Virus record (IMG/VR): IMGVR_UViG_3300034257_000053
Coordinates: 1-64,000 of that record
Strand: one strand, 5' to 3'
Length of the DNA: 64,000 nucleotides
From: a virus
Position 1 is the first letter of the stretch; the number at the start of each line of letters is the position of its first letter. The notes beneath the pieces are model-generated. The model was not told where the DNA came from. It saw nothing but the letters and a program-made list of their open reading frames with translations, and did not search any database. Position numbers and translations under genes: made by a program. Positions 3,834-34,210 of the stretch are shown here, in pieces.

Positions 3834-4414
3834 TCACCCGCGCCGACTTCGACCGCATTCGCGTGCTGCTCGGTGAGCAGGCCGAGGACGACATCGCGTG
3901 GTCGGAGAACGTGCGCGCGCCGGAGAGCGCCGACGATTTCGCCTCGGAGGCGATCTACGTCATCTGCAATTCCGGCATGAAGCACAAGGTCGCGGTCGGA
4001 ATCTTTCGCAAGGTGATGGCCGCGCTGGAGCTCAACGAGACGTCGGCGAGCGTTTTCAATCACGAGGGCAAGGCGCGCGCCATCGACTGGATTCACACGT
4101 GGCGCGTGCCGCTGTTCGAGTTCTACCGGCTGCCCTGGAGCGACGAGCGAAAGCTCGAGATCCTGCAAATGCTGCCGTGGATCGGCGGCATCACGAAGTA
4201 TCACCTCGCCAAGAACTTCGGGCTCAACTGCGCCAAGCCGGACGTCCACCTCGTTCGCCTCGCCAAGCGTGAGGGCTGCACGGTCGATGTGCTGTGCGCG
4301 CGGCTCGCGGGTGAGACCGGACTGCGCGTCGCGACGGTCGACGTCGTCCTCTGGCGTGCCTGCGCCACGGGCGCCCTCAACTCGAAAACCGGAACCATCA
4401 GGGAGGCCGCATGA
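3830..4414 (+). CDS. helix-hairpin-helix DNA-glycosylase-like protein
   Basis: A 194-residue protein. LPWIGGITKYHLAKNFG (from residue 115) fits the helix-hairpin-helix of the endonuclease III/HhH-GPD fold, and KPDVHLVRLAKREG follows with Asp138 where the catalytic aspartate of that family would be. The C-terminal iron-sulfur cysteines of endonuclease III are absent. It may excise bases. Phage relatives of this fold have also been linked to synthesis of hypermodified pyrimidines, and I cannot tell these apart. It overlaps both neighbours by four bases and sits beside methyltransferases. Confidence 0.6.
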   Translation: MITRADFDRIRVLLGEQAEDDIAWSENVRAPESADDFASEAIYVICNSGMKHKVAVGIFRKVMAALELNETSASVFNHEGKARAIDWIHTWRVPLFEFYRLPWSDERKLEILQMLPWIGGITKYHLAKNFGLNCAKPDVHLVRLAKREGCTVDVLCARLAGETGLRVATVDVVLWRACATGALNSKTGTIREAA

Positions 4415-6120
4415 CGGTGCTGCCTTCACGCATCTCGTGCAAGCGCGCCGAGGCCGAGGGGCTCGGTGCGGTGTGGGTCGGCGCCGCGACGAACTGGTCG
4501 AGCCATTTCGACCAGGGCGAGGCCTCGTCCGCGCAGCGCGTCGCGCTCTACCGCGACTGGTTCAACAGCGACGACCGGCGCGCCGCCATCTGTCGCGACA
4601 ACCTGCACACGCTGCGCGGCCAGACGCTGGCGACCGACGATCCGCTGGAGGAGCCCTGCCACGCCGACGTGCTGATCGAACTCGCCAACGTCGGGCTTGA
4701 AGGCGAGATCGTGAATCCGCCCCTTATGCACTACGACGCGTTTTGCCGCGCCATCGCGGCGGCCGTGGCCGTTGATGAGATCGCGTTGATCCGCAACAAG
4801 GCGGCGGCGCTGCAAGCGGCCGCGCGCGTCGCGAAGAACAAGGTGCCGGAGGTCCAGTGCGCCGAACTCGTGCTCCGCGCCGAGCGGCGCCTGGGTCAGA
4901 TGCTGACCGAGCAGAAGGCGACGGTCGGCATGGCGCCCGGCGGCCAGCCCTATCAGGACGGGACGCCTACCGGTTCCGATCCGGAACAGGTAGCCCGCCG
5001 CGCCCCGACGCTCAAGGAAGTTGGCATCGACCGCAAGCTGTCGATGCGGGCGCAGAAGCTCGCTGCGGTGCCGGCCGACAAATTCGAGGGGATGGTCACG
5101 GAGTGGAAGGGCCGTGTCGCCAAGGAAGGCGAGCGCGTCACCACCAACCTCCTGAAAGAGGGCGAGCAGCAGCTTGAGCGCCAGCGCCGCGCCGAGACCA
5201 AATTGCCGGGCGGCGGGAAGGTCGAGGATCTGCATGCGCTGGTGTCGCAGGGCTACCGCGCAGGCGTGATCTATGCCGACCCCGCGCGGCGCTTCAAGAC
5301 CTGGTCGGAGCGCGGCGAGGATCGCTCCGCCATCCAGCACTACAACATGCAGGCGCTGGAAGAATTGAAGGCGCTGCCGATCCCGGCTCTCGCGGCCGCG
5401 GACTGCGGCTACTTCTCCTGGGTGCTCGATTGGGACCTCGAGCTCGCGTTCGAACTCATCAAGCACTACGGCTTTTCGTTCAAGACCGTCGCGTTCACCT
5501 GGGTGAAGTTGACCGAGGGCCACGACTACACCCCGCGCTTCGACGGCAAGATCAGCGATCGCGATTTTCATTTCGGCATGGGCAAGTGGACCCGCGCCAA
5601 CCCGGAAATGTGTTGGCTCGCAACGCGCGGCTCGCCGCCGCGGCTCGATGCCGGCGTGCGCCAGCTCGTGATCCATCCGCTGATGGAGCACTCGCGCAAG
5701 CCGGATCTGCACGACCGCATCGAACGACTGGCCGGCGGGCCTTACATCGAATTCAACGCGCGCCGCGAGCGTGAGAACTGGCTGACGTGGGGCGACGAAC
5801 TGCCGTTCCCTATGCCGGTGGCCGGTCCGACCGAGCCTGTGCTCACCGAAACGCAGCGCATCACGGCAGCGATCGCGCGAACCGGTCTGCCGAATCCGTT
5901 CTTCGAGGAGCCGTTCGATCCGCCGCCCGGCGTGCCGCGCGAGCAGTGGGCCGCGGAAATGCGGCGGACGTCGGACCTCAGCGAAGTGATCAACGCGCAC
6001 GCGGCGCAGAGCGTGCCGCCGGTTGCCGACGACCAGCTTGAAATTCCGCCATTCCTGCGGCGCTCGCCCGATCCCGAGAAATCGGATTCCCAGCAGCCGG
6101 GCAGCGGTGAGCAGCCATGA
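4411..6120 (+). CDS. MT-A70-like adenine methyltransferase with altered catalytic motif
   Basis: A 569-residue protein. Residues about 40-92 resemble the end of DUF4326 (HTLRGQTLAT, CHADVLIELAN). Residues 100-270 match the region that often precedes phage MT-A70 domains (AERRLGQML, TLKEVGIDRKLSMRAQKLAA). Residues 280-450 are MT-A70-like: VIYADPARRFKTWSE, then CGYFSWVLDW and CWLATRG. Family enzymes carry DPPW at the active site; here residues 290-293 read DPAR, so activity is doubtful. The tail beyond residue 460 is proline-rich. Probably an N6-adenine DNA methyltransferase or a decayed one. Confidence 0.7.
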   Translation: MTVLPSRISCKRAEAEGLGAVWVGAATNWSSHFDQGEASSAQRVALYRDWFNSDDRRAAICRDNLHTLRGQTLATDDPLEEPCHADVLIELANVGLEGEIVNPPLMHYDAFCRAIAAAVAVDEIALIRNKAAALQAAARVAKNKVPEVQCAELVLRAERRLGQMLTEQKATVGMAPGGQPYQDGTPTGSDPEQVARRAPTLKEVGIDRKLSMRAQKLAAVPADKFEGMVTEWKGRVAKEGERVTTNLLKEGEQQLERQRRAETKLPGGGKVEDLHALVSQGYRAGVIYADPARRFKTWSERGEDRSAIQHYNMQALEELKALPIPALAAADCGYFSWVLDWDLELAFELIKHYGFSFKTVAFTWVKLTEGHDYTPRFDGKISDRDFHFGMGKWTRANPEMCWLATRGSPPRLDAGVRQLVIHPLMEHSRKPDLHDRIERLAGGPYIEFNARRERENWLTWGDELPFPMPVAGPTEPVLTETQRITAAIARTGLPNPFFEEPFDPPPGVPREQWAAEMRRTSDLSEVINAHAAQSVPPVADDQLEIPPFLRRSPDPEKSDSQQPGSGEQP

Positions 6121-6311
6121 TGGTCGTGCGCCCCGATCATCCTCCGTACCGTTTCAGCGGCGTGCTGATCCCGGTCGCCGAGAGGCAGGCTCATATCGAG
6201 CGCGGCTGGACCGTGGTCGACGATCTCGACGGCGGTCTCGAGACGCCCGCGTGCGGGCACGGCGCGCTCGTGCTGATGCAGCCGCCCGACGACGATGGGG
6301 CGCTGTCGTGA
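6117..6311 (+). CDS. small hypothetical protein
   Basis: A 64-residue protein (MMVVRPDHPPYRFSGVLIPV). A second ATG follows at 6120; the first overlaps the upstream stop and the second abuts it. It ends within the GTGA that starts the Dam-like gene. Acidic C-terminus. No recognisable family. Confidence 0.5.
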   Translation: MMVVRPDHPPYRFSGVLIPVAERQAHIERGWTVVDDLDGGLETPACGHGALVLMQPPDDDGALS

Positions 6312-7243
6312 ACGCGCTCGCGCACATCGAGACGGCCGATCCTGTTGCACCGCCGCGCGTCACGCGTCCGGTGCTTCGCTACTACGGCGCGAAATACAAA
6401 ATTGCTCCGGACATCATCCGGTATTTCCCGCGGCATCGCACGTACACCGAGGCGTTCGGTGGCGCAGCCGGCGTGCTGCTGCGCAAGCCGCGGTCGCACG
6501 CGGAGGTGTGGAACGATCTCGATCGCGAAGTCGTCATCCTGTTCCGGGTGTTGCAGAACGCGAAGAAAGCAGCGCGCCTCATCGAACTGCTGCGCCTCAC
6601 GCCGTTCGCGCGCGGTGAGTTCGAACTGTCCTACAAGCCTCATGCCGACCACGTGGAAATCGCGCGGCGCTTGATCGTTCGCAGCTTCATGGGTTTCGGC
6701 TCAAACGCGCACGCATCGAGCGAGCGCGGCCATCGCTCGACCGGCTTCCGCGCCAACTCGAACCGATCCGGCACGACGCCGGCACATGATTGGGCGAACT
6801 ATCCCAATGCGCTGCCGGCGATCATCGAGCGGATGCAAGGTGTTGTGATCGAGCGGCGCGATGCCCCGAAGGTGCTCACGCGTCACGACAGCAAGACGAC
6901 GCTGCACTTTGTCGATCCGCCCTACCTGCCCGAGACGCGCTCACCCGCCAATAAATACGATCTCAAACACCGGTTGTATCGCCACGAACTCGATGGGGGG
7001 GGGCACGTCGAACTCCTCGCTCACCTCAAGACTCTTGCCGGCATGGTGGTGCTCTGCTCGTACCCCAACGAGCTTTACGAAGGCGCATTGACCGACTGGC
7101 TGCGCGTCGAGATCGCGGCCTACGCCGACGGCGCACGGCCGCGCATCGAAGTCCTCTGGCTCAACCCTGCCTGCGTTGCCGCGCTCAAGCGCGAGCATGC
7201 GGGCGAGGGCACACCTCTGTTCGCGGGCGGGGGTGAGGCATGA
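6308..7243 (+). CDS. D12-class DNA N6-adenine methyltransferase (Dam-like)
   Basis: A 311-residue protein starting at GTG 6308 inside a GTGA overlap. The N-terminal YYGAKYKIAPDI and EAFGGAAGVLL form the cofactor-binding motif I region. FVDPPYLPETR carries the DPPY catalytic motif (Asp203-Tyr206). VVLCSYPNELYE and IEVLWLNP complete the D12 order. It transfers a methyl group from S-adenosylmethionine to adenine in DNA, probably protecting or marking phage DNA. A run of nine G (6995-7003) lies inside the gene and encodes three glycines where relatives usually have polar residues; slippage there would truncate the enzyme. Confidence 0.85.
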   Translation: MNALAHIETADPVAPPRVTRPVLRYYGAKYKIAPDIIRYFPRHRTYTEAFGGAAGVLLRKPRSHAEVWNDLDREVVILFRVLQNAKKAARLIELLRLTPFARGEFELSYKPHADHVEIARRLIVRSFMGFGSNAHASSERGHRSTGFRANSNRSGTTPAHDWANYPNALPAIIERMQGVVIERRDAPKVLTRHDSKTTLHFVDPPYLPETRSPANKYDLKHRLYRHELDGGGHVELLAHLKTLAGMVVLCSYPNELYEGALTDWLRVEIAAYADGARPRIEVLWLNPACVAALKREHAGEGTPLFAGGGEA

Positions 7244-9667: not shown

Positions 9668-9710
9668 CCCCGCCGGCGGGGCGCCGGCACTTCACAGGAG
9701 GACGACCATG
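9668..9710 (+). promoter_or_regulatory. hairpin leader and strong ribosome binding site of the DGR target gene
   Basis: Bases 9668-9681 are a perfect 14-base GC palindrome (ccccgccggcgggg), followed by AGGAGG at 9697-9702 and the ATG at 9708. The last 17 bases, acaggaggacgaccatg, are identical to the leader of the minus-strand gene starting at 28982, which also has a GC hairpin upstream. The chain of four-base overlaps is broken here, so the target protein is probably translated independently and strongly. Confidence 0.55.
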
Positions 9711-10613
9711 AACAAAGCCACCAATCCAACCGCCGCCGCATCGGCCCTGACCAAGGCCGATCCGACGAGTCCCGCGCTCATCGTCACCGGTCGCGATGCG
9801 ATCGCGATCAAGGCCGGAACAGTTTTTGCCGGCCGCACCTTCGCGGAACAGACCGCGGTGGAGATGCCCTCCGCAGGCCTGACGGCAGGCACGGACTACG
9901 CCGTGATCGTCGATGCGACGACCGTCCGCGCGGAGCCGCTCACGGTCGTGCCGGTGAGCGAGACCTGCCTCGGCGGCTTCCATTTCGCGCCAGGCGGTAA
10001 CGCGGCCGCGCGCTCCGGTGGTGACGACATTCCGGCGATCAATCCGTTCTCGTGCTGGGATGTGAACTTCCGGCCGGCATGCCTCGATCCGCGCGGCATG
10101 ACGCGGGTCGATGGACCGCTGGGGACGTTCTGGTCCGACATCTACCTGCTCGCATCCGATCACCTCGCGAACGGCACCAGCCGGCTCGGCGTCACCATCG
10201 CCGACGGCAACGATCCGCCGGAAAACCCCAAGGGCGGCCGTTTCAAGAAACTCGACTACGCGACCGCCGTCGCGGTGATGGCGCATCACGGCAAGGGCCT
10301 GCACGGTCCCGAGGAGTTTTTCGCCGCGGCCTACGGCGTGACGGAACTCACCGTGCACGACGGCGATCCGAAGGTGACCAAGCTCGATGCGCCGCGCACC
10401 AGCAAGTGGGGCCTGATCCAGCCGGCCGGCAATCTCTGGCAGTGGGGCCACGACGGCGATCCTGACAAACCGCGCGCTTCCTTCTTCGGCGGCTCCTGGT
10501 GGTTCGGCGGCGGCGCCGGCTCGCGCTGCGCGAACGTCGCGTACGGCTTCCCCGACGACTCGAACGTCCGCATCGGGGCGCGCGGCCGCGGTGATCACCT
10601 GCAACTTGCTTAG
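9708..10613 (+). CDS. DGR target protein with lectin/FGE-like variable C-terminus
   Basis: A 301-residue protein. Residues 1-95 are a small beta-rich N-terminal region (TGRDAIAIKAGTVFAGRTF). Residues about 110-301 resemble the formylglycine-generating-enzyme/C-type-lectin fold used by DGR variable proteins: CLDPRGM, then WGLIQPAGNLWQWG, FFGGSWWFGG and IGARGRG. The last 47 residues contain the VR. Eight codons differ from the template (residues 259, 266, 267, 269, 274, 280, 287, 288), all through changes at template adenines. It is probably a displayed ligand-binding protein. The tail genes are 36 kb away, so attachment to the virion is unproven. Confidence 0.85.
   Translation: MNKATNPTAAASALTKADPTSPALIVTGRDAIAIKAGTVFAGRTFAEQTAVEMPSAGLTAGTDYAVIVDATTVRAEPLTVVPVSETCLGGFHFAPGGNAAARSGGDDIPAINPFSCWDVNFRPACLDPRGMTRVDGPLGTFWSDIYLLASDHLANGTSRLGVTIADGNDPPENPKGGRFKKLDYATAVAVMAHHGKGLHGPEEFFAAAYGVTELTVHDGDPKVTKLDAPRTSKWGLIQPAGNLWQWGHDGDPDKPRASFFGGSWWFGGGAGSRCANVAYGFPDDSNVRIGARGRGDHLQLA
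10470..10594 (+). repeat. DGR variable repeat (VR)
   Basis: 125 bp, colinear with the TR at 11049-11173 at a constant offset of 579 bases and no gaps. The 11 mismatches are at 10482, 10503, 10504, 10507, 10512, 10513, 10528, 10546, 10567, 10569 and 10570. In every case the TR base is A (4 A to T, 6 A to G, 1 A to C). The last 24 bases (10571-10594) are identical to the TR and GC-rich, as expected for the homing-initiation region. Confidence 0.95.
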
Positions 10614-10631
10614 CCGTTGCGACAGCGACGG
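10614..10631 (+). promoter_or_regulatory. DGR target-site hairpin downstream of VR
   Basis: The sequence ccgttgc-GACA-gcgacgg folds into a 7-bp stem (one T-G pair) with the four-base loop GACA. It starts directly after the TAG at 10611-10613 and 19 bases after the VR. In the Bordetella phage BPP-1 DGR, a short hairpin/cruciform with a GRNA-type loop just downstream of VR is needed for efficient retrohoming; GACA fits that pattern. Function here is inferred from position and shape. Confidence 0.6.
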
Positions 10632-10647
10632 CAACTGAGCCGCCACG

Positions 10648-11046
10648 ATGGACAAGGCAGAAAATCTCGCGACCGACGCCTTGGTCATCGTCCAAAAATA
10701 CGAGGCCTTTGTGCACTACCTCTATCCGATCCTGCAGAGCAGCCCGCGCAAGCACGGCGTCGTTCGCGACATCGTGCTTGCCGCGCTGTTCGCGCCGGTC
10801 GAGGGCCTCTATCGCGCCGCACGTTCGCGACAGGTGTCGCGCCTTCATGACGTCGACGGTCAGTTCGCGACGCTGCGGTTCCATCTTCGCTTCCTCGCCC
10901 TCCCCACCATCCGGATCGTTTCTCCGAAACAGCACCCCATCGCACTCGCGATGCTGTCGGAGGCGGGAAAGATGCTCGGGGCGTGGCAACGGAAGCTCAA
11001 TGACTTGGGCGCGCGTGCGCGTCCAAGAGGGCAGGCGGGGATATGA
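10648..11046 (+). CDS. avd: Avd, DGR accessory variability determinant
   Basis: A 132-residue, highly basic, all-helical protein. IVQKYEAFVHYLYPIL, RDIVLAALFAPVEGLYRAA, DVDGQFATLRFHLRFLA and IVSPKQHPIALAMLSEAG reproduce the Avd four-helix-bundle pattern (KYE-FVHYLYPI and IS-KQY-). In known DGRs, Avd forms a pentamer that binds the reverse transcriptase and template RNA and is required for mutagenic cDNA synthesis. It lies between the VR gene and the TR; its TGA is two bases before the TR begins. The start at 10648 is 34 bases after the target gene stop. Confidence 0.9.
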   Translation: MDKAENLATDALVIVQKYEAFVHYLYPILQSSPRKHGVVRDIVLAALFAPVEGLYRAARSRQVSRLHDVDGQFATLRFHLRFLALPTIRIVSPKQHPIALAMLSEAGKMLGAWQRKLNDLGARARPRGQAGI

Positions 11047-11048
11047 TG

Positions 11049-11173
11049 CCGCGCGCTTCCATCTTCGGCGGCTCCTGGTGGAACGACGGCAACGCCGGCT
11101 CGCGCTACGCGAACGTCGCGTACGACTTCCCCGACGACTCGAACGACAACATCGGGGCGCGCGGCCGCGGTGA
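11049..11173 (+). repeat. DGR template repeat (TR)
   Basis: 125 bp non-coding template matching the VR. It has 20 adenines, of which 11 differ in the VR. AAC and GAC codons sit at the mutated positions (N, D, N, Y, D, D, N in VR frame), the usual DGR design that maximises amino-acid diversity without creating stops. It is transcribed as part of the template RNA between avd and the reverse transcriptase. The frame is open through the TR, but I see no sign it is translated. Confidence 0.95.
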
Positions 11174-11184
11174 CGACCGGATGC

Positions 11185-11204
11185 CGGGACTCTGCGGAGT
11201 CCCG
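11185..11204 (+). other. hairpin downstream of TR
   Basis: cgggactc-tgcg-gagtcccg: a perfect 8-bp stem with a 4-base loop, 11 bases after the TR. It has no counterpart after the VR at this position. It probably shapes the 3' part of the template RNA, which in studied DGRs extends past the TR and is recognised by the reverse transcriptase and Avd. No T-run follows, so it is not a typical terminator. Confidence 0.55.
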
Positions 11205-11387
11205 TCGGCTCGACGACGATCACGGTCCCGTCGGCCGACCACGAGCGATCAAGGTCGGTGGTCAGCCCGCCGGTCCTGCTTCGGCGAACACACTCCACGG
11301 TCCGGCAGAGCGGGGCGTAGCAGGCGATGCCTTCGGGCACGCCTGTCGAGACCCGCGGCCGGCTTCTTCATGGATGGGACGCCCGTT

Positions 11388-12398
11388 ATGGCGAAGCGCT
11401 ACCGCAACCTCATCGGCGCGATCACGTCCGATGCCACGATGCGCAAGGCTTACCGCCTCACCGCGAGCGGCAAGCGGCTCACGGCCGGTTATCTGCAATT
11501 CAAGGAATACGATGCGTTGAACCTGGCGGTGCTCGCCGAGGAGATGGCGAACGGCACCTATCGGCCCGGTATTCCGGGCACGTTCTACGTGTTCGATCCC
11601 AAGCTGCGGCTGATCTCGGCGCTGCCGTTCCGCGATCGTGTCGCCCAGCAAGCACTCTGCCTCATCATCGCACCGATCTTCGATCGCGCGCTGCTGCCGC
11701 GCTGCTTTGCCGGCCGCCCCGGAAAGGGCACGCATGCCGCCGTGATCGCGCTGCAACGCGACCTGCGGCACCTGTCGCGCAGCGGCCCGGTGTATTTCCT
11801 GAAGACGGATTTCTCGCGCTACTTCGCGTCGATCGAGCTTTCGCAGTTGTGGAAGCTGATCGAGGCCAAGATCAGTTGCCGTGCGACGCTGCGGCTGATC
11901 GAGGCGATCGTGCCGCGGTCCGGCATCGGCCTGCCGATCGGAAGTCTCACATCGCAGATCTTCGCCAACCTGTACGCCGGCGCCACGCTCGACCGCCACC
12001 TGCAGCAGACGCTCGGCGAGACCTACTGGTATCGCTACATGGACGATGTCGTCGTCCTCGGCGCGAGCAGCGAACACCTGCGGCTGGTGAAAGCGAGCAT
12101 CGAGACCTTCTCACGCGACCAACTCAGCCTGCGCTTCTCGAAATGGCAGATCGCGCCGGCGACGCGGGGCATCAACTTCGTCGGCTACCGCACATGGTCA
12201 AGCCACAAGCTGCTGCGGCGTGACAGCGTCATCCGCGCGCGCCGCAAGATCGCGGCCTATCGCGCGAACGGTGATGACGAGCGGCTGCGCAAGTTCATCG
12301 CGGCCTGGTTCGGGCACGCGCAGTTCGCCGACAGCGGAAATCTGATCCGCAGCCTCGGCTTGCGACCGATGACACGCAACGGGGACGCACGCGCATGA
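11388..12398 (+). CDS. DGR reverse transcriptase
   Basis: A 336-residue protein of the DGR reverse-transcriptase group. FLKTDFSRYFASI gives the first catalytic aspartate (Asp141). GLPIGSLTSQIFANLY (from residue 181) has the GxxxSQ form typical of DGR and retron/group II enzymes. RYMDDVVVL carries the YMDD box (residues 217-220). The thumb region is short, and there is no RNase H or endonuclease domain. It copies the template RNA with frequent misincorporation opposite adenine. ATG 11388 is chosen because MAKRYRNLIGAI is the usual enzyme start; ATG 11370 is an alternative. The 214 bases before it hold the template RNA 3' part. Confidence 0.93.
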   Translation: MAKRYRNLIGAITSDATMRKAYRLTASGKRLTAGYLQFKEYDALNLAVLAEEMANGTYRPGIPGTFYVFDPKLRLISALPFRDRVAQQALCLIIAPIFDRALLPRCFAGRPGKGTHAAVIALQRDLRHLSRSGPVYFLKTDFSRYFASIELSQLWKLIEAKISCRATLRLIEAIVPRSGIGLPIGSLTSQIFANLYAGATLDRHLQQTLGETYWYRYMDDVVVLGASSEHLRLVKASIETFSRDQLSLRFSKWQIAPATRGINFVGYRTWSSHKLLRRDSVIRARRKIAAYRANGDDERLRKFIAAWFGHAQFADSGNLIRSLGLRPMTRNGDARA

Positions 12399-16078: not shown

Positions 16079-16332
16079 GCCAGGAACTTTATCGCGATCA
16101 GGACAGCCCGGTGCCGATGGTTGATGCGCGCAACACCGTCACGGTGGCTGATCTCGCGAAACTGTTGGCGTTCACGCTCGGCGCCGAGGTTCTGATCGGA
16201 CTCGCCACCGAGATCGAGTGGGCGACGATCCTGTATGGGGTGGGGACCACGCTTTCGTTCGGCGTCGGCACGATCGTGTTCGTCGCGATCAAGACCAAGC
16301 GCCGAATCCAATGGCCGGCGAGGCGCGCATGA
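16075..16332 (+). CDS. small two-span membrane protein
   Basis: An 85-residue protein with two hydrophobic segments, about residues 25-46 (LAKLLAFTLGAEVLIGLATE) and 50-72 (TILYGVGTTLSFGVGTIVFV), then a basic tail KTKRRIQWPARRA. The topology would suit a holin or a membrane anchor, but it sits in the replication/methylation arm rather than in a lysis cassette, so holin function is only a guess. The start overlaps the preceding stop. Confidence 0.55.
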   Translation: MSQELYRDQDSPVPMVDARNTVTVADLAKLLAFTLGAEVLIGLATEIEWATILYGVGTTLSFGVGTIVFVAIKTKRRIQWPARRA

Positions 16333-17051
16333 CGCTCGGCTCGCACCAGCAGTCGATCGGCCGGAGCCAGGTGGCGATCACGCCGCGCATCATCATCGCG
16401 CGGACCGGGCCATACGATCTCGACCCCTGCGCCAGCGACCCGCAGCCGTGGCCGTGTGCGGCGGTGAGCTACACCGAGGCCGACGACGGGTTGTCGCTGC
16501 CGTGGTTCGGCCGCGTCTTTCTCAACCCGCCGTTCGATCGCCGCGTCGTCGGCGCCTGGATCATGCGCATGATCGCGCACGGGCACGGCACGCTGCTGGT
16601 GCACGCGCGCACCGAGACCAACTGGTTCTGGCCGATCTGGGATACGGCCGCGGCGCTCCTGTTCCTGCGCCGGCGGCAGCGCTTTCACCAGCCCGACGGC
16701 TCGCTGTTTCTCAACCGGCAGGGTCAGCCGAAGGACTCCGGCGCGCCAGTGGTCCTCGCCGCGTTCGGCTTCCGCGATGCCGAGATTCTCGCCGACTGCG
16801 GGCTTGAGGGAAAGCTCGTGCCGCTGCTGCTGCCGCGCGGCGTGCTGATCACGGCGCTCGCCGAGCCGACTTGGGTAGGCCTCGTCTCCGCGTTCGTGCA
16901 CGAGCGCGGCCGCGCCTCGATCGACGAGATCCTTCGCTTCGTCTCCGCGCATCGCAAGGCGCGCGGCAACAACCACGTGCGCGCGAAGCTGCGCCAGATC
17001 CTCAACAGCGACGGCTTCCGGCGCGACGGCAGCGAATGGGTGACGGCATGA
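16329..17051 (+). CDS. phage-type DNA N6-adenine methyltransferase, copy 1
   Basis: A 240-residue protein of the phage Dam family. TPRIIIARTGPYDLDPCAS is the usual opening (LDPCA), GRVFLNPPFDRR carries the NPPF catalytic motif, and LLVHARTETNWFWPIW and FLRRRQRF match later family blocks. The last 60 residues (RGRASIDEILRFVSAHRKAR) look like a winged helix. It uses S-adenosylmethionine to methylate adenine. A diverged copy follows at 17410, separated by one small gene. Confidence 0.82.
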   Translation: MTLGSHQQSIGRSQVAITPRIIIARTGPYDLDPCASDPQPWPCAAVSYTEADDGLSLPWFGRVFLNPPFDRRVVGAWIMRMIAHGHGTLLVHARTETNWFWPIWDTAAALLFLRRRQRFHQPDGSLFLNRQGQPKDSGAPVVLAAFGFRDAEILADCGLEGKLVPLLLPRGVLITALAEPTWVGLVSAFVHERGRASIDEILRFVSAHRKARGNNHVRAKLRQILNSDGFRRDGSEWVTA

Positions 17052-17413
17052 CCGAAGCGCTGCTGCGCAGAGTGGTCGATCTCACATGGGCCCATGCCTT
17101 TGAGAACGAGAGCGTGCAGTCAAGCGAGGTGGCGACCAGGATCATCGACGCCGCACGCGCAAGCTTCGTTGCGGATGCAAAGTTCGCGTTCGTGGAAGCG
17201 GGTCATCCGCTTCCCGACTATATCATCGAGCGCATACGCCCCGGTGACCGGGTGCTGGTCGAGGCCATCGTCCGGACCGGCTTTAACGGTGCCGTGTGCA
17301 CGAATTGGCCGATCAGGATTGAACTCGACACTGGCGAGTCCGACACCGTCGATATCAAGGGCAACGTGCATCGCTCCGCGCTCCGCGCCGTGGTGGAGCG
17401 CGCGAAGCCATGA
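17048..17413 (+). CDS. hypothetical protein between tandem methyltransferases
   Basis: A 121-residue protein. The N-terminal helix (LLRRVVDLTWAHAFENE) is followed by a beta-rich region (RVLVEAIVRTGFNGAV, IRIELDTGESDTVDIK). It overlaps both flanking methyltransferase genes by four bases. No domain recognised; it could be an accessory subunit, but this is guesswork. Confidence 0.5.
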   Translation: MTEALLRRVVDLTWAHAFENESVQSSEVATRIIDAARASFVADAKFAFVEAGHPLPDYIIERIRPGDRVLVEAIVRTGFNGAVCTNWPIRIELDTGESDTVDIKGNVHRSALRAVVERAKP

Positions 17414-18195
17414 CGATGGGCTCGCACCAAACGTCCGTCGGCAAGAACGACAGCCGCTTCACGCCGCAGTGGCTTTGGCGGCCGCTCAATCCTTTCGCTA
17501 CCGACGCGGCGACCGGCGCCGTGCGGCCATGGGACATCGGGACCGAGCGCAACATCACGATCGCCGACAACTGCCTTGCGATGGACTGGCAGCCGTTCGG
17601 GCGGACCTGGCTCAATCCCCCGTTCAACCGCTTCGGCGTCGGCGCGTTCGTCAGGAAGATGTGCGAGCACAACCACGGCATCATGCTGTTGCACAATCGT
17701 CCCGAGACGAAGTGGTTTCGGCCGATCTTCGGTGCGGCGACGGCAAGGCTCTATCTCGATCGCCGCGTCATTTTCTGCAACGCCGACGGCTCGCCATGCA
17801 CGATCGAGAATCCGGAGGCGAAGCACTACGGCAAACAGGCCAATTCCGGCGCGCCGGTAGTGCTGATCGCCTTCGGTTTCCCGGATGCCGACGTGCTCTA
17901 CGGTTTCGATATCGCCAACAACCCGCCCGGTGAACTGCACGGCAATTTCGAAGCGATGATGCTGCCGGTGTCGGTGCTGGTGCGCATGATCGAGGCGCCG
18001 CCGTCCTGGCGCGCGCTGGTCGCCTCATTCCTGCGCTCGGTGAACCGGCCGGTGTCGGTCGCCGAGGTCTACGAGTTCGTGCGCGGCCACGACAAGACGC
18101 GCGATCGCGCGCACTGGCGCGAGAAGGTGCGCCAGACACTCGTCCGCGGCGCGGGCCTGCGCATCGCCCCGAACCAATGGGTGGCGGCCGCATGA
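17410..18195 (+). CDS. phage-type DNA N6-adenine methyltransferase, copy 2
   Basis: A 261-residue paralogue of the 16329 gene. Both begin with GSHQ-S-G; here RTWLNPPFNRFGVGAFV carries NPPF, and IMLLHNRPETKWFRPIF and the C-terminal winged-helix-like RPVSVAEVYEFVRGHDK align in order with copy 1. The LDPCA opening is replaced by WDIGTERN, so cofactor or target details may differ. Tandem placement suggests duplication followed by divergence, perhaps with two sequence specificities. Confidence 0.8.
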   Translation: MTMGSHQTSVGKNDSRFTPQWLWRPLNPFATDAATGAVRPWDIGTERNITIADNCLAMDWQPFGRTWLNPPFNRFGVGAFVRKMCEHNHGIMLLHNRPETKWFRPIFGAATARLYLDRRVIFCNADGSPCTIENPEAKHYGKQANSGAPVVLIAFGFPDADVLYGFDIANNPPGELHGNFEAMMLPVSVLVRMIEAPPSWRALVASFLRSVNRPVSVAEVYEFVRGHDKTRDRAHWREKVRQTLVRGAGLRIAPNQWVAAA

Positions 18196-26972: not shown

Positions 26973-27394
26973 GCCGCTGCCCTCCCTGCACAGTCGGCGC
27001 GGTGGCCCGTGGCGGGGTCGATGCCGCGCTCGCGCTGGCTTTCCCACCATTCGGGAGCGAAGGCGCCGAACATCGGTTTCCAGCCCGCTACTCTTGCACC
27101 ACACGATGGGCATTCGCCACGGGTCGCCGCCTCCAACCGACGCACCGGCTCGGCCATCTCTCGCCCCTGCGGCGAAGGCTCGGCATCGTAGCGCCGCCAG
27201 TGAACGCGCACGCCTTTGTGGCCGGAGCGGGTGACCTCCTCGAACCAATCGACGACCACCGGGAAATTCAGCGTGCGCCCGACATGTTCGCGCGAATTCT
27301 CGACTGACATTGAGAACGCGCCCCGCGACTGTTCGCAGTCGATCTCGAAGATCTCGGTCATGATGTCGGTGGCGGGATCAGGTAGGGCGCTCAT
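26969..27394 (-). CDS. hypothetical protein with CPSC motif
   Basis: A 141-residue protein from ATG 27394. The first half is beta-rich (EIFEIDCEQSRGAFSMSVE). GECPSCGARVAGWKPMFGAF is followed by HRADCAG near the C-terminus, giving cysteines and a histidine that may form a zinc site. It follows the ATPase gene with a four-base overlap. Role unknown. Confidence 0.5.
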   Translation of the reverse strand: MSALPDPATDIMTEIFEIDCEQSRGAFSMSVENSREHVGRTLNFPVVVDWFEEVTRSGHKGVRVHWRRYDAEPSPQGREMAEPVRRLEAATRGECPSCGARVAGWKPMFGAFAPEWWESQRERGIDPATGHRADCAGRAAA

Positions 27395-28785
27395 GCTGCC
27401 CTCCCGATCAGCGACCACAGCCACGCGATCGGCTTCGGCCTGGCCGGTGGCGTGCCTGGCGTTGGGGGCTTCGGCGCTGCCGGCGGCCGCGGCAGGTCGC
27501 CCCGCTCGGTGAGCCGCTCGACGAACGCGTCGAACTGCGCCTCGCGGCTCGTCTCGCGCCCGTAGCGCGTGCGCAGCGGGCAGGCCCGCATCAGCGCGTC
27601 ACGTTCGAAATCCGAGACCGGACCGATCTGCGCGGCGGGCGGTGCCACCATCACGCGCTCGACCGGTGTCGGCGTGCCGTCGAGGGCGAGGAACGAGACC
27701 AGCGCCTCGCCGGTGCCGAGCGCGGTGACGGCCTCGGTGACCTTGAACGCCGGGTTGGGGCGGAAGCCGTCCTCGATCGCCTTCAAGGTGCGGCGGTCCT
27801 TCGGGGTGAACACGCGCAGCGCATGCTGCACGCGATTGCCGAGCTGGGCGGCGACGTTGTCCGGCACGTCGCGCGGCGACTGCGTCACGAAATAGACCCC
27901 GACGCCCTTCGAGCGGATCAGGCGCACGACTCGCTCGATGGTTTCCAGAAGGCGCGGTGAGGCCTCGGCGAACAACAGGTGCGCCTCGTCGAAGAAGAAC
28001 ACGAGCTTGGGCTTGTCGAGATCGCCCGCCTCGGGTAGCACATTGAACAGCGAGGAGAGCAGCCACAGCAGGAAGGTGCCGTAGAGCCGCGGCGTATCCA
28101 TCAGCCGATCGGCGTGCAGCAAGTTGATGATGCCGCGGCCGTCCTCGTCGGTGCGCAGGAAATCATTGATGTCGAGCGCGGGCTCGCCGAACAGGTTGTG
28201 CCCGCCCTGCGCCTCCAGCACCAGGATGGCGCGCTGGATCGTGCCGATCGACGTGCTGGAGATGTTGCCGTAGGACGCGCGGATATCGTCGGCGAAGTCC
28301 GGCATCAGCGAGAGCCTGGCGCGCAGGTCGTGCAGGTCGCACATCGGCACGTTCTCGCCCCACGGCGACCATCTAAACGCGATGTTGAGCACGCCTTCCT
28401 GCGTTTCGTTGAGCTTGAGCATGCGCGCGAGCAGCAGCGGCCCCATTTCGTGCACGCTGGTGCGGATCGGCAGGCCCGCATCGCCCCACAGGTCCCAGAA
28501 CACGACGGGGAATTTCTCTGGCGTGCGTGCGAGCCCGAGCGCGGCCGCACGGTCAGCGGCTTTGCCATCGAATGCGCCGGCGGCGGCAAGGCCGGAGAGG
28601 TCGCCCTTGATGTCGGAGGCGAACACCGGCACGCCGGCGCGGGAGAACTCCTCGGCCAGGCGCTGCAAGGTGACGGTCTTGCCGGTGCCGGTCGCGCCGG
28701 TGACGAGACCGTGGCGGTTGGCGAGCCGCAAGGGCAGCGCGATCGCGGTGCCGGCGGCGGTGAGCCCGAGGGTGATGGCGGTCAT
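27391..28785 (-). CDS. HerA/DUF853-like ATPase
   Basis: A 464-residue protein. LANRHGLVTGATGTGKTVTL is Walker A (residues 30-37), and KLVFFFDEAHLLF is Walker B near residue 260. FASDIKGDLSGLA, RLIRSKGVGVYFVTQSP and NRVQHALRVFTPKD match the DUF853 (YjgR-type) group of HerA/FtsK-like ATPases. The C-terminus is proline-rich. DUF853 proteins are usually host genes of uncertain role; HerA relatives translocate on DNA. A phage copy might act in DNA processing or packaging, which is inference. It lies in the same operon as the sliding clamp. Confidence 0.85.
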   Translation of the reverse strand: MTAITLGLTAAGTAIALPLRLANRHGLVTGATGTGKTVTLQRLAEEFSRAGVPVFASDIKGDLSGLAAAGAFDGKAADRAAALGLARTPEKFPVVFWDLWGDAGLPIRTSVHEMGPLLLARMLKLNETQEGVLNIAFRWSPWGENVPMCDLHDLRARLSLMPDFADDIRASYGNISSTSIGTIQRAILVLEAQGGHNLFGEPALDINDFLRTDEDGRGIINLLHADRLMDTPRLYGTFLLWLLSSLFNVLPEAGDLDKPKLVFFFDEAHLLFAEASPRLLETIERVVRLIRSKGVGVYFVTQSPRDVPDNVAAQLGNRVQHALRVFTPKDRRTLKAIEDGFRPNPAFKVTEAVTALGTGEALVSFLALDGTPTPVERVMVAPPAAQIGPVSDFERDALMRACPLRTRYGRETSREAQFDAFVERLTERGDLPRPPAAPKPPTPGTPPARPKPIAWLWSLIGRAA

Positions 28786-32830: not shown

Positions 32831-34162
32831 CTAGACGCGCATCGGCATGAGAACGAACAGCGGGCCGCTATTGTCCGCCGCGCGCACCAGCGTCGGCGAA
32901 CCGGGATCAGCGAGCATGAGGGTCACACGCTCGCCGCCGACCTGTTCCAGAATGTCGGCGAAGTAGCGGCCATTGAATCCGATGTCCATCGGATCGCCGG
33001 ACCAGTCGCATTCGATCTGCTCGCGCGTGTCGCCCGCGTCGGGGTTTTGCACGGTGAGGGTGAGGCGGTTGCCCTCAATCGAGAACTTCACCGCGCGACC
33101 GCGCTCGCTCGATACGGTGCTCACGCGGTCGACGGCCGCCGCCAGCTCACCAAGGTCGACGGTGAGGCGGTGCGGGTTGCCGAGCGGGATCACGCGCCCA
33201 TAGTCGGGGAACGTGCCGTCGATCAGCTTTGAAATCAGCGTGACGTTGCCGCTGCTAAAGATGATGCCAGCCGGACCGACCGACACGGTCAACATGACCG
33301 ACGGCGCGGCAGTCTCGCCCTTTTTCGCCTTGCGCGGCTTGGTGCCGAACATCGCGATCACGCAATCGACCGCCTTGCTGGGCACGATCACGCCCGGCAT
33401 GTCGGCCGCGCCCTCGGGCATCGCCATATCGACCTGGGCCAGGCGGTGGCCATCGGTCGCGACCATGCGCAACGCGCCGGGGTTGCCGTTGTAGCGCTGC
33501 ACGCCATTCGACTTGATCGCGTGCAGGTAAATGCCGTTCAAATAATAGCGGGTTTCCTCTGTCGAGATCGCGAAGCGCGCGCGTCGCAGCGCATTGCAGA
33601 ATGTCAGCGCGTCGACCGTGAAGGTCGCGGGCGCGGCAAACTCGCGATCCTTCGGCCAATCGGCGGGCAGCGCGGTGGAAAGCGCGCCGTTTGATGCGCC
33701 AAGGCGCACCGCCACCCGGCCGGGGTTGACGGTGTACCATGGCGCGGCGTTCGCGGGCTTGTGCTCGATCTTCTCCGGCTGTTTCGTGATGTCGAGTGCG
33801 ACGGTATCGGCTCCGGACTTGCGCAGCATGTCGCGGAACATGTGAGCCGGGACCGCAAGCGCGAAGCCCGCGCCGACGGTGGCCGGGATCGTGACGCGCG
33901 CGGTCAGGTCGAGATCGGTGGTTTCGATCATGAGGCCGCCGCCATGCTCGCGCAGCAGCACATTCGACAGGATTGGAATCGTGTTGCGCTTTTCGGTGAC
34001 GATGGTGGCGAGCTGCATCGCGCTTGCGAGCGCGGTACGGTCGACGCGCGCGGATGGTAGCGGCGCGGGGTTTTCATTCGCGGCCAACACCGCCGCGATG
34101 TCCGCCACGATGGCGGGCGGCGCGACGGTGGCGGTGGCAAGGTTTACGCGGTCCTGTTGCAT
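32831..34162 (-). CDS. dnaN: DNA polymerase III beta subunit (sliding clamp)
   Basis: A 443-residue protein from ATG 34162, longer than the usual 365-380 residues because of an N-terminal extension of about 50 and an insertion. LASAMQLATIVTEKRNTIPI then LSNVLLREHGGGLMIETTDL, ATDGHRLAQVDMAMPEG, SKLIDGTFPDYGRVIP and the terminal LFVLMPMRV are classic beta-clamp blocks. It encircles DNA and tethers polymerase. A phage-encoded clamp of the bacterial type is uncommon. It may serve the host polymerase at the phage fork, or a phage polymerase encoded outside the window. Confidence 0.9.
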   Translation of the reverse strand: MQQDRVNLATATVAPPAIVADIAAVLAANENPAPLPSARVDRTALASAMQLATIVTEKRNTIPILSNVLLREHGGGLMIETTDLDLTARVTIPATVGAGFALAVPAHMFRDMLRKSGADTVALDITKQPEKIEHKPANAAPWYTVNPGRVAVRLGASNGALSTALPADWPKDREFAAPATFTVDALTFCNALRRARFAISTEETRYYLNGIYLHAIKSNGVQRYNGNPGALRMVATDGHRLAQVDMAMPEGAADMPGVIVPSKAVDCVIAMFGTKPRKAKKGETAAPSVMLTVSVGPAGIIFSSGNVTLISKLIDGTFPDYGRVIPLGNPHRLTVDLGELAAAVDRVSTVSSERGRAVKFSIEGNRLTLTVQNPDAGDTREQIECDWSGDPMDIGFNGRYFADILEQVGGERVTLMLADPGSPTLVRAADNSGPLFVLMPMRV

Positions 34163-34182
34163 GTCGACTCCTTTCAGTAAGC

Positions 34183-34198
34183 CCCGCACGATCGCGGG
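34183..34198 (-). promoter_or_regulatory. leader hairpin variant before the clamp gene
   Basis: cccgc-acgatc-gcggg, a 5-bp stem 20 bases upstream of ATG 34162. It occupies the same position as leader hairpins 1-4 and shares the cgatc core, with a one-base change in the loop. Confidence 0.5.
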
Positions 34199-34210
34199 CG
34201 CTTGGAACAC

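Follow-up and report, generated by a model that had tools for sequence, protein, structure and literature searches.

Bordetella phage BPP-1 (NC_005357) carries a diversity-generating retroelement (DGR) with the gene order mtd-avd-TR-brt, in which the template repeat (TR) precedes the reverse transcriptase (RT) gene. A hairpin at the target site is required for efficient homing in BPP-1 (Guo et al., PMC3240598), and hairpins of this type have a stem of 7-10 bp, a GRNA loop and a position 4-34 bp 3' of the variable repeat (VR) (PMC3240598). The N-terminal β-prism of Mtd, presumed to be the attachment point of the protein to the tail fibre (PMC10743442), is a feature of BPP-1 Mtd and does not define a DGR. 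In the DiGReF survey (2012), structural group 3 comprises DGRs in which the TR overlaps the annotated RT open reading frame, 5' or 3' (PMC3521204).

Here, we describe a cassette found in a window of 64 kb (the whole stretch of DNA analysed, from a record of 69,485 bp). The cassette is almost certainly a complete DGR of the BPP-1 type, in which an adenine-misread cDNA replaces the VR of an Mtd-like tail protein gene. It is an ordinary example apart from one feature, shared with most of its close relatives: the template is part of a protein-reading frame that continues into the RT gene. The carrier is a contractile-tailed phage and, by analogy with BPP-1, the tip of its host-recognition protein would be rewritten at random by a machine of a known kind.

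Comparison set

Relatives were collected by an RT scan of IMG/VR (42 loci), a target scan of IMG/VR (58 loci) and a GTDB genome scan (four loci, in Xanthobacteraceae, Rhodopseudomonas and other Alphaproteobacteria). The resulting non-redundant set, which counts BPP-1 and the window among its members, comprised 64 cassettes and 92 VRs. The nearest relatives with known hosts belong to the Alphaproteobacteria (Xanthobacteraceae/Rhizobiales). One public T7 record (L109; LR745708.1) contains a laboratory-made gp17-Mtd chimera, so that the match to Mtd in T7 is not natural.

Cassette organization and repeats

The earlier note had described target gene, avd, TR and RT gene as a contiguous and complete DGR in canonical order, and all of its coordinates hold. 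The VR (10470-10594, plus strand) is identified from the VR/TR alignment and from homologous VRs in relatives, and the TR (11049-11173, plus strand) from the same alignment. As previously reported, the ungapped alignment of the two repeats spans 125 bp and contains 11 mismatches, every one at a TR adenine, and 11 of the 20 TR adenines are changed; the hypergeometric probability of such a restriction is 9e-11 (20 TR adenines in 125 bp). Opposite these adenines the VR has T at 10482, 10503, 10504 and 10567, G at 10507, 10512, 10513, 10528, 10546 and 10570, and C at 10569, and the peptides encoded by TR and VR differ at eight residues inside the repeat. A pair of repeats with adenine-confined mismatches is a hallmark of membership in the DGRs.

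A scan of the 64 kb window that allowed any base at TR adenines revealed no third copy of the repeat, and a BLAST search of the whole record with the TR returned the TR and VR only. Nor did the window scan or the whole-record search reveal a further target or an additional VR in the phage.

Target gene

The target gene (9708-10613, plus strand) encodes a 301-residue Mtd homologue and is preceded by a ribosome-binding site recognizable from its sequence, AGGAGG (9696-9701, plus strand). Its identity is established by matches to Pfam (PF21916, mtd_2nd, E 3.9e-8), PHROG (phrog_11262, tail protein, E 2.9e-77) and PDB sequences (Mtd variants, best E 3e-54 for 1yu2), together with an alignment to relatives and BPP-1. 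An AlphaFold2 model built on a 46-row alignment (pLDDT 86.6) matched 1yu0-1yu4 at TM 0.83-0.85. The VR falls in the C-terminal C-type-lectin-like domain, at the 3' end of the gene, as is characteristic of a DGR target.

Residue 11 of the target aligns with residue 54 of Mtd, so that about 43 N-terminal residues, corresponding to the β-prism, are missing; the target is thus not a full-length Mtd, and every relative examined is short in the same way. The target and the examined relatives also lack an insertion of roughly 20 residues seen before the VR in BPP-1 Mtd. Since the gene is found in the early region, roughly 40 kb away from the tail module, and its product is without the N-terminal domain, we infer rather than observe that the protein is a receptor-binding protein of the virion.

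Avd and reverse transcriptase

The avd gene (accessory variability determinant; 10648-11046, plus strand) was identified by PF22296 (E 1.4e-24), by the NCBIfam equivalog NF033474 above its cut-off and by a match to the solved Avd of BPP-1 (PDB codes 8ub7_B and 4dwl), as expected of a DGR. The RT gene (11388-12398, plus strand; 336 residues) matches PF00078, phrog_1423 (E 1e-103) and 8ub7_A, the RT of the solved BPP-1 complex (E 1.6e-105). All RT boxes are present, including the GxxxSQ and YMDD boxes that the earlier note had read from the translation, which occur here as IGSLTSQ and YMDD. NCBIfam matches to group II, retron and Drt types of RT were all far under their cut-offs, and these assignments were rejected.

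In a maximum-likelihood tree that also contains RTs of phage DGRs and of group II introns, the RT is placed inside the DGR clade, beside that of BPP-1, with the group II intron RTs outside on a 100/100 branch; the objection that the enzyme might belong outside the clade therefore falls away. Compared with relatives, both proteins are under purifying selection, with dN/dS of about 0.15-0.22 for RT and about 0.22-0.42 for Avd.

Target-site signals

At its 3' end, the VR contains an 18-nt run of G and C only (10574-10591, plus strand), identical in the TR. By analogy with BPP-1, and with the definition taken from PMC3240598, it would constitute the IMH (GC) element; divergence between VR and TR starts at 10595, after the run, as in an IMH of the BPP-1 type.

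Downstream lies a hairpin (10613-10632, no strand assigned), GCCGTTGC-GACA-GCGACGGC, with an 8-bp stem that includes one G-T pair and a loop of GRNA type. Its first base is the last base of the TAG stop codon of the target gene, 18 nt after the VR, and in stem, loop and distance it agrees with the hairpins described for BPP-1. Hairpins with at least seven of eight pairs follow 85 of the 92 VRs in the relatives, compared with 11 of the 92 TRs. Covariation among 32 different hairpins points the same way, with 96.9% of cells able to pair and two-sided changes in 57 cells, compared with 14 after shuffling. Loops other than GRNA (GCAA and GCCA) occur at L009, L012 and a few other VRs and may broaden the loop consensus of PMC3240598. 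Neither this hairpin nor the open frame described below was part of the earlier note.

Recent activity of the family and probable activity of the window copy

By analogy with BPP-1, the RT-Avd complex would copy the avd-TR-spacer-RT transcript with misreading of adenines, and at the 3' end of the gene for the Mtd-like tail protein the cDNA would take the place of the VR, with the G/C-rich 3' terminus of this repeat and the stop-codon hairpin as anchors. Such replacement would randomize residues on the surface of the receptor-binding lectin domain and leave the TR unchanged. We present these biochemical steps as the probable course of events in the window DGR.

Across the 64 non-redundant cassettes and their 92 VRs, 1061 of 1088 VR/TR mismatches fall at TR adenines; as the search that supplied the cassettes demanded that 75% or more of the mismatches fall at adenines, this share of 97.5% is descriptive and not a test. 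Pairs of related cassettes are more telling. L036 and L043 differ at 15 of 17 VR adenine sites, at none of 69 TR positions and at 8 of 5095 other positions. In two pairs of about 91-92% identity (L024/L090 and L078/L083), 58-59% of VR adenine sites differ, compared with 0-2% of other VR sites, while in L015/L016 and L101/L030 the VR is unchanged. The IMG/VR sequences L036, L037 and L043 are near-identical, with nearly all differences at VR adenine sites, and appear as snapshots of recent DGR activity. This concentration of differences between near-identical relatives indicates that the DGR family has recently been active. The adenine-directed mutagenic retrohoming proposed in the earlier note thus stands at the level of the family, with retrohoming itself deduced by homology; its further claim, that the process has acted in this lineage, is borne out in the window by a single sign, the difference between VR and TR.

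An exact pattern scan of IMG/VR gave no match to the window VR/TR pair. Since the nearest relative of the window RT is only 81% identical, recent activity of this particular copy is something we infer. None of the defining DGR features examined in the cassette failed to appear, and the window DGR is very probably functional.

Two other explanations of the cassette can be weighed against an active DGR. It might be decayed or dormant, with its parts present, the VR differences old and diversification at an end. The lack of a near-identical relative with recent change and the G-T pair in the hairpin stem would fit this reading, but the three genes are intact, every RT box is present, dN/dS is well below 1 for RT and Avd, and there are no non-adenine mismatches over the 125 bp of VR/TR, although such mismatches accumulate once homing has long stopped. 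We therefore consider dormancy quite improbable. Far less credible still is an ordinary duplication followed by biased mutation, with no retroelement involved: one segment is indeed present in two copies, 579 bp apart, but mismatches confined to the adenines of one copy (P 9e-11), a DGR-type RT and Avd next to the repeats and the recurrence of the adenine pattern in 64 cassettes leave this explanation with a vanishing probability, and the adenine restriction refutes it.

A reading frame across template and spacer

The RT start assigned by homology is the methionine of MAKRYRNL at 11388, with an alternative in-frame ATG at 11370. The RT frame is, however, open back to 11043, so that the mechanical open reading frame, 11043-12398, includes the TR. 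It begins at a tandem ATGATG (11043-11048, plus strand), in the frame of TR and VR, the first ATG of which overlaps the avd stop codon (ATGA); the ATG is conserved in the clade. From the frame and from codon-position counts, the spacer between TR and RT (Sp; 11174-11387, plus strand) is open and continuous with both. A structured spacer RNA from which cDNA synthesis is primed belongs to the features of DGRs, and the spacer present here may play this part.

For each non-redundant relative, the TR frame was taken from the frame of its own target gene. In 57 of the 58 cassettes of the clade, an ATG in this frame lies at most 20 nt 5' of the TR; in the two alternative frames the counts are 0 and 1. 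The spacer can be read through without a stop in the TR frame in 56 of 58, compared with 19 and 4 of 58 in the alternative frames and about 26 of 58 (about 44%) predicted by composition. TR and RT frames are fused in 46 of the 62 cassettes scored. Ten of the 11 cassettes with a shifted frame keep the TR frame open as far as the RT start codon, where it meets a stop at +1 or +5, the place at which the end of a coupled gene would be expected; in L079, also frame-shifted, it ends 13 nt short of that codon. Since a second RT codon that begins with A makes the +1 stop automatic, openness up to the RT start is what counts.

These raw counts overstate independence, because the sequences are related, and a comparison of indels is a fairer test. 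Mapped on the RT tree, the spacer shows 39 length changes and seven frame changes, whereas the gap between target and avd, used as a control, shows 37 and 21 (Fisher P 7e-4); if two-thirds are expected to change the frame, the binomial P for the spacer is about 5e-10. Differences by codon position are 0.20/0.165/0.20 in the spacer and 0.15/0.12/0.42 in RT, which has the third-position excess that the spacer lacks. Coding conservation of the spacer is ruled out by this absence, and the peptide is accordingly not the thing that is kept; the spacer appears to be conserved at the RNA and not the protein level. Our reading is that the TR frame would be under selection and the peptide not, with translational coupling from avd to RT as the proposed cause.

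We give an even chance to the proposal that the TR itself is translated in the clade. Ribosomes leaving avd would restart at the ATG before the TR (in the window, through the ATGA overlap), pass over TR and spacer and then either carry on into RT, yielding a fusion, or end and reinitiate at its start codon, or do both. One RNA would then be both mRNA and template for mutagenesis, and RT translation would be linked to ribosome transit across the template. That the short RT is made too is suggested by the conserved methionine of MAKRYRNL and by runs resembling a Shine-Dalgarno sequence, which precede it in about half of the relatives but not in the window.

The frame might instead be a chance opening in GC-rich DNA, kept by common ancestry and without a role in translation. 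The GC-rich spacer, with its compositional expectation of about 44% open, the absence of a synonymous excess and the lack of the ATG in basal relatives and BPP-1 all speak for chance, and yet neither the excess of open TR frames over the other two (56 of 58 against 19 and 4), nor the few frame changes in the spacer set beside those of the control gap, nor the persistence of the frame up to the RT start in ten of 11 frame-shifted cassettes is what chance would lead us to expect. We regard it as possible but doubtful.

The translated template, a statistical signal in sequences, might be the one point here that is new to a specialist. If true, it would raise a question that goes beyond BPP-1, that of one RNA acting as mRNA, as binding scaffold for RT-Avd and as template for reverse transcription, and coupled translation would offer a simple control on the timing of RT production.

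Genomic context

The cassette is located in an early-gene region (window 1-21000) rich in DNA methyltransferase domains: MT-A70 (4411-6120), D12 (6023-7243), C5 (12619-14958) and Dam-like (16218-17051 and 17410-18195). Near the cassette are also a DnaG primase and a gene resembling a replication initiator, and contractile tail genes lie about 40 kb away. Elsewhere, on the minus strand, the window encodes a DNA polymerase III sliding clamp with all three domains (32831-34210) and a phage HerA-like ATPase (27391-28785; PF05872, E 1e-183).

Comparison with known systems

With the window, a large and little-described clade of alphaproteobacterial phages and prophages, whose DGR family bears direct genomic signs of recent activity, gains a well-supported BPP-1-like DGR. 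Members of this clade from IMG/VR and GTDB (for example, L041, L002-L005 and L100-L103) have the architecture of the window, mostly at 66-81% RT identity. Two VRs are present in 28 of the 64 non-redundant cassettes, compared with one in the window; in L007, L008, L034 and L103, for instance, one TR serves two Mtd-like targets with separate VRs, the second of which is mostly just upstream, and in some cases about 2-5 kb off.

As in structural group 3 of DiGReF, the window TR lies inside an open reading frame that contains RT, but in the section consulted of that survey (PMC3521204) the group is an annotation class with no test of frame conservation. No further treatment of this class was found in the literature searched, which covered few subscription papers. 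In four phage DGRs besides BPP-1 the TR-RT frame arrangement is missing or partial; VHML has an ATG before the TR, and its TR frame overlaps the RT start.

BPP-1 resembles the window in gene order and in the pattern of adenine mutagenesis, with 42-44% identity between Mtd and the target and 52% between the RTs, which belong to neighbouring clades. Both have Avd, a G/C-only segment at the 3' end of the VR and an 8-bp hairpin with a GRNA loop that starts at the last base of a TAG stop codon. The BPP-1 cassette adjoins tail and lysis genes, whereas that of the window lies amid replication and methyltransferase genes, and the BPP-1 TR has no ATG of its own and is out of frame with RT, whereas the window TR has an ATG and a frame open into RT.
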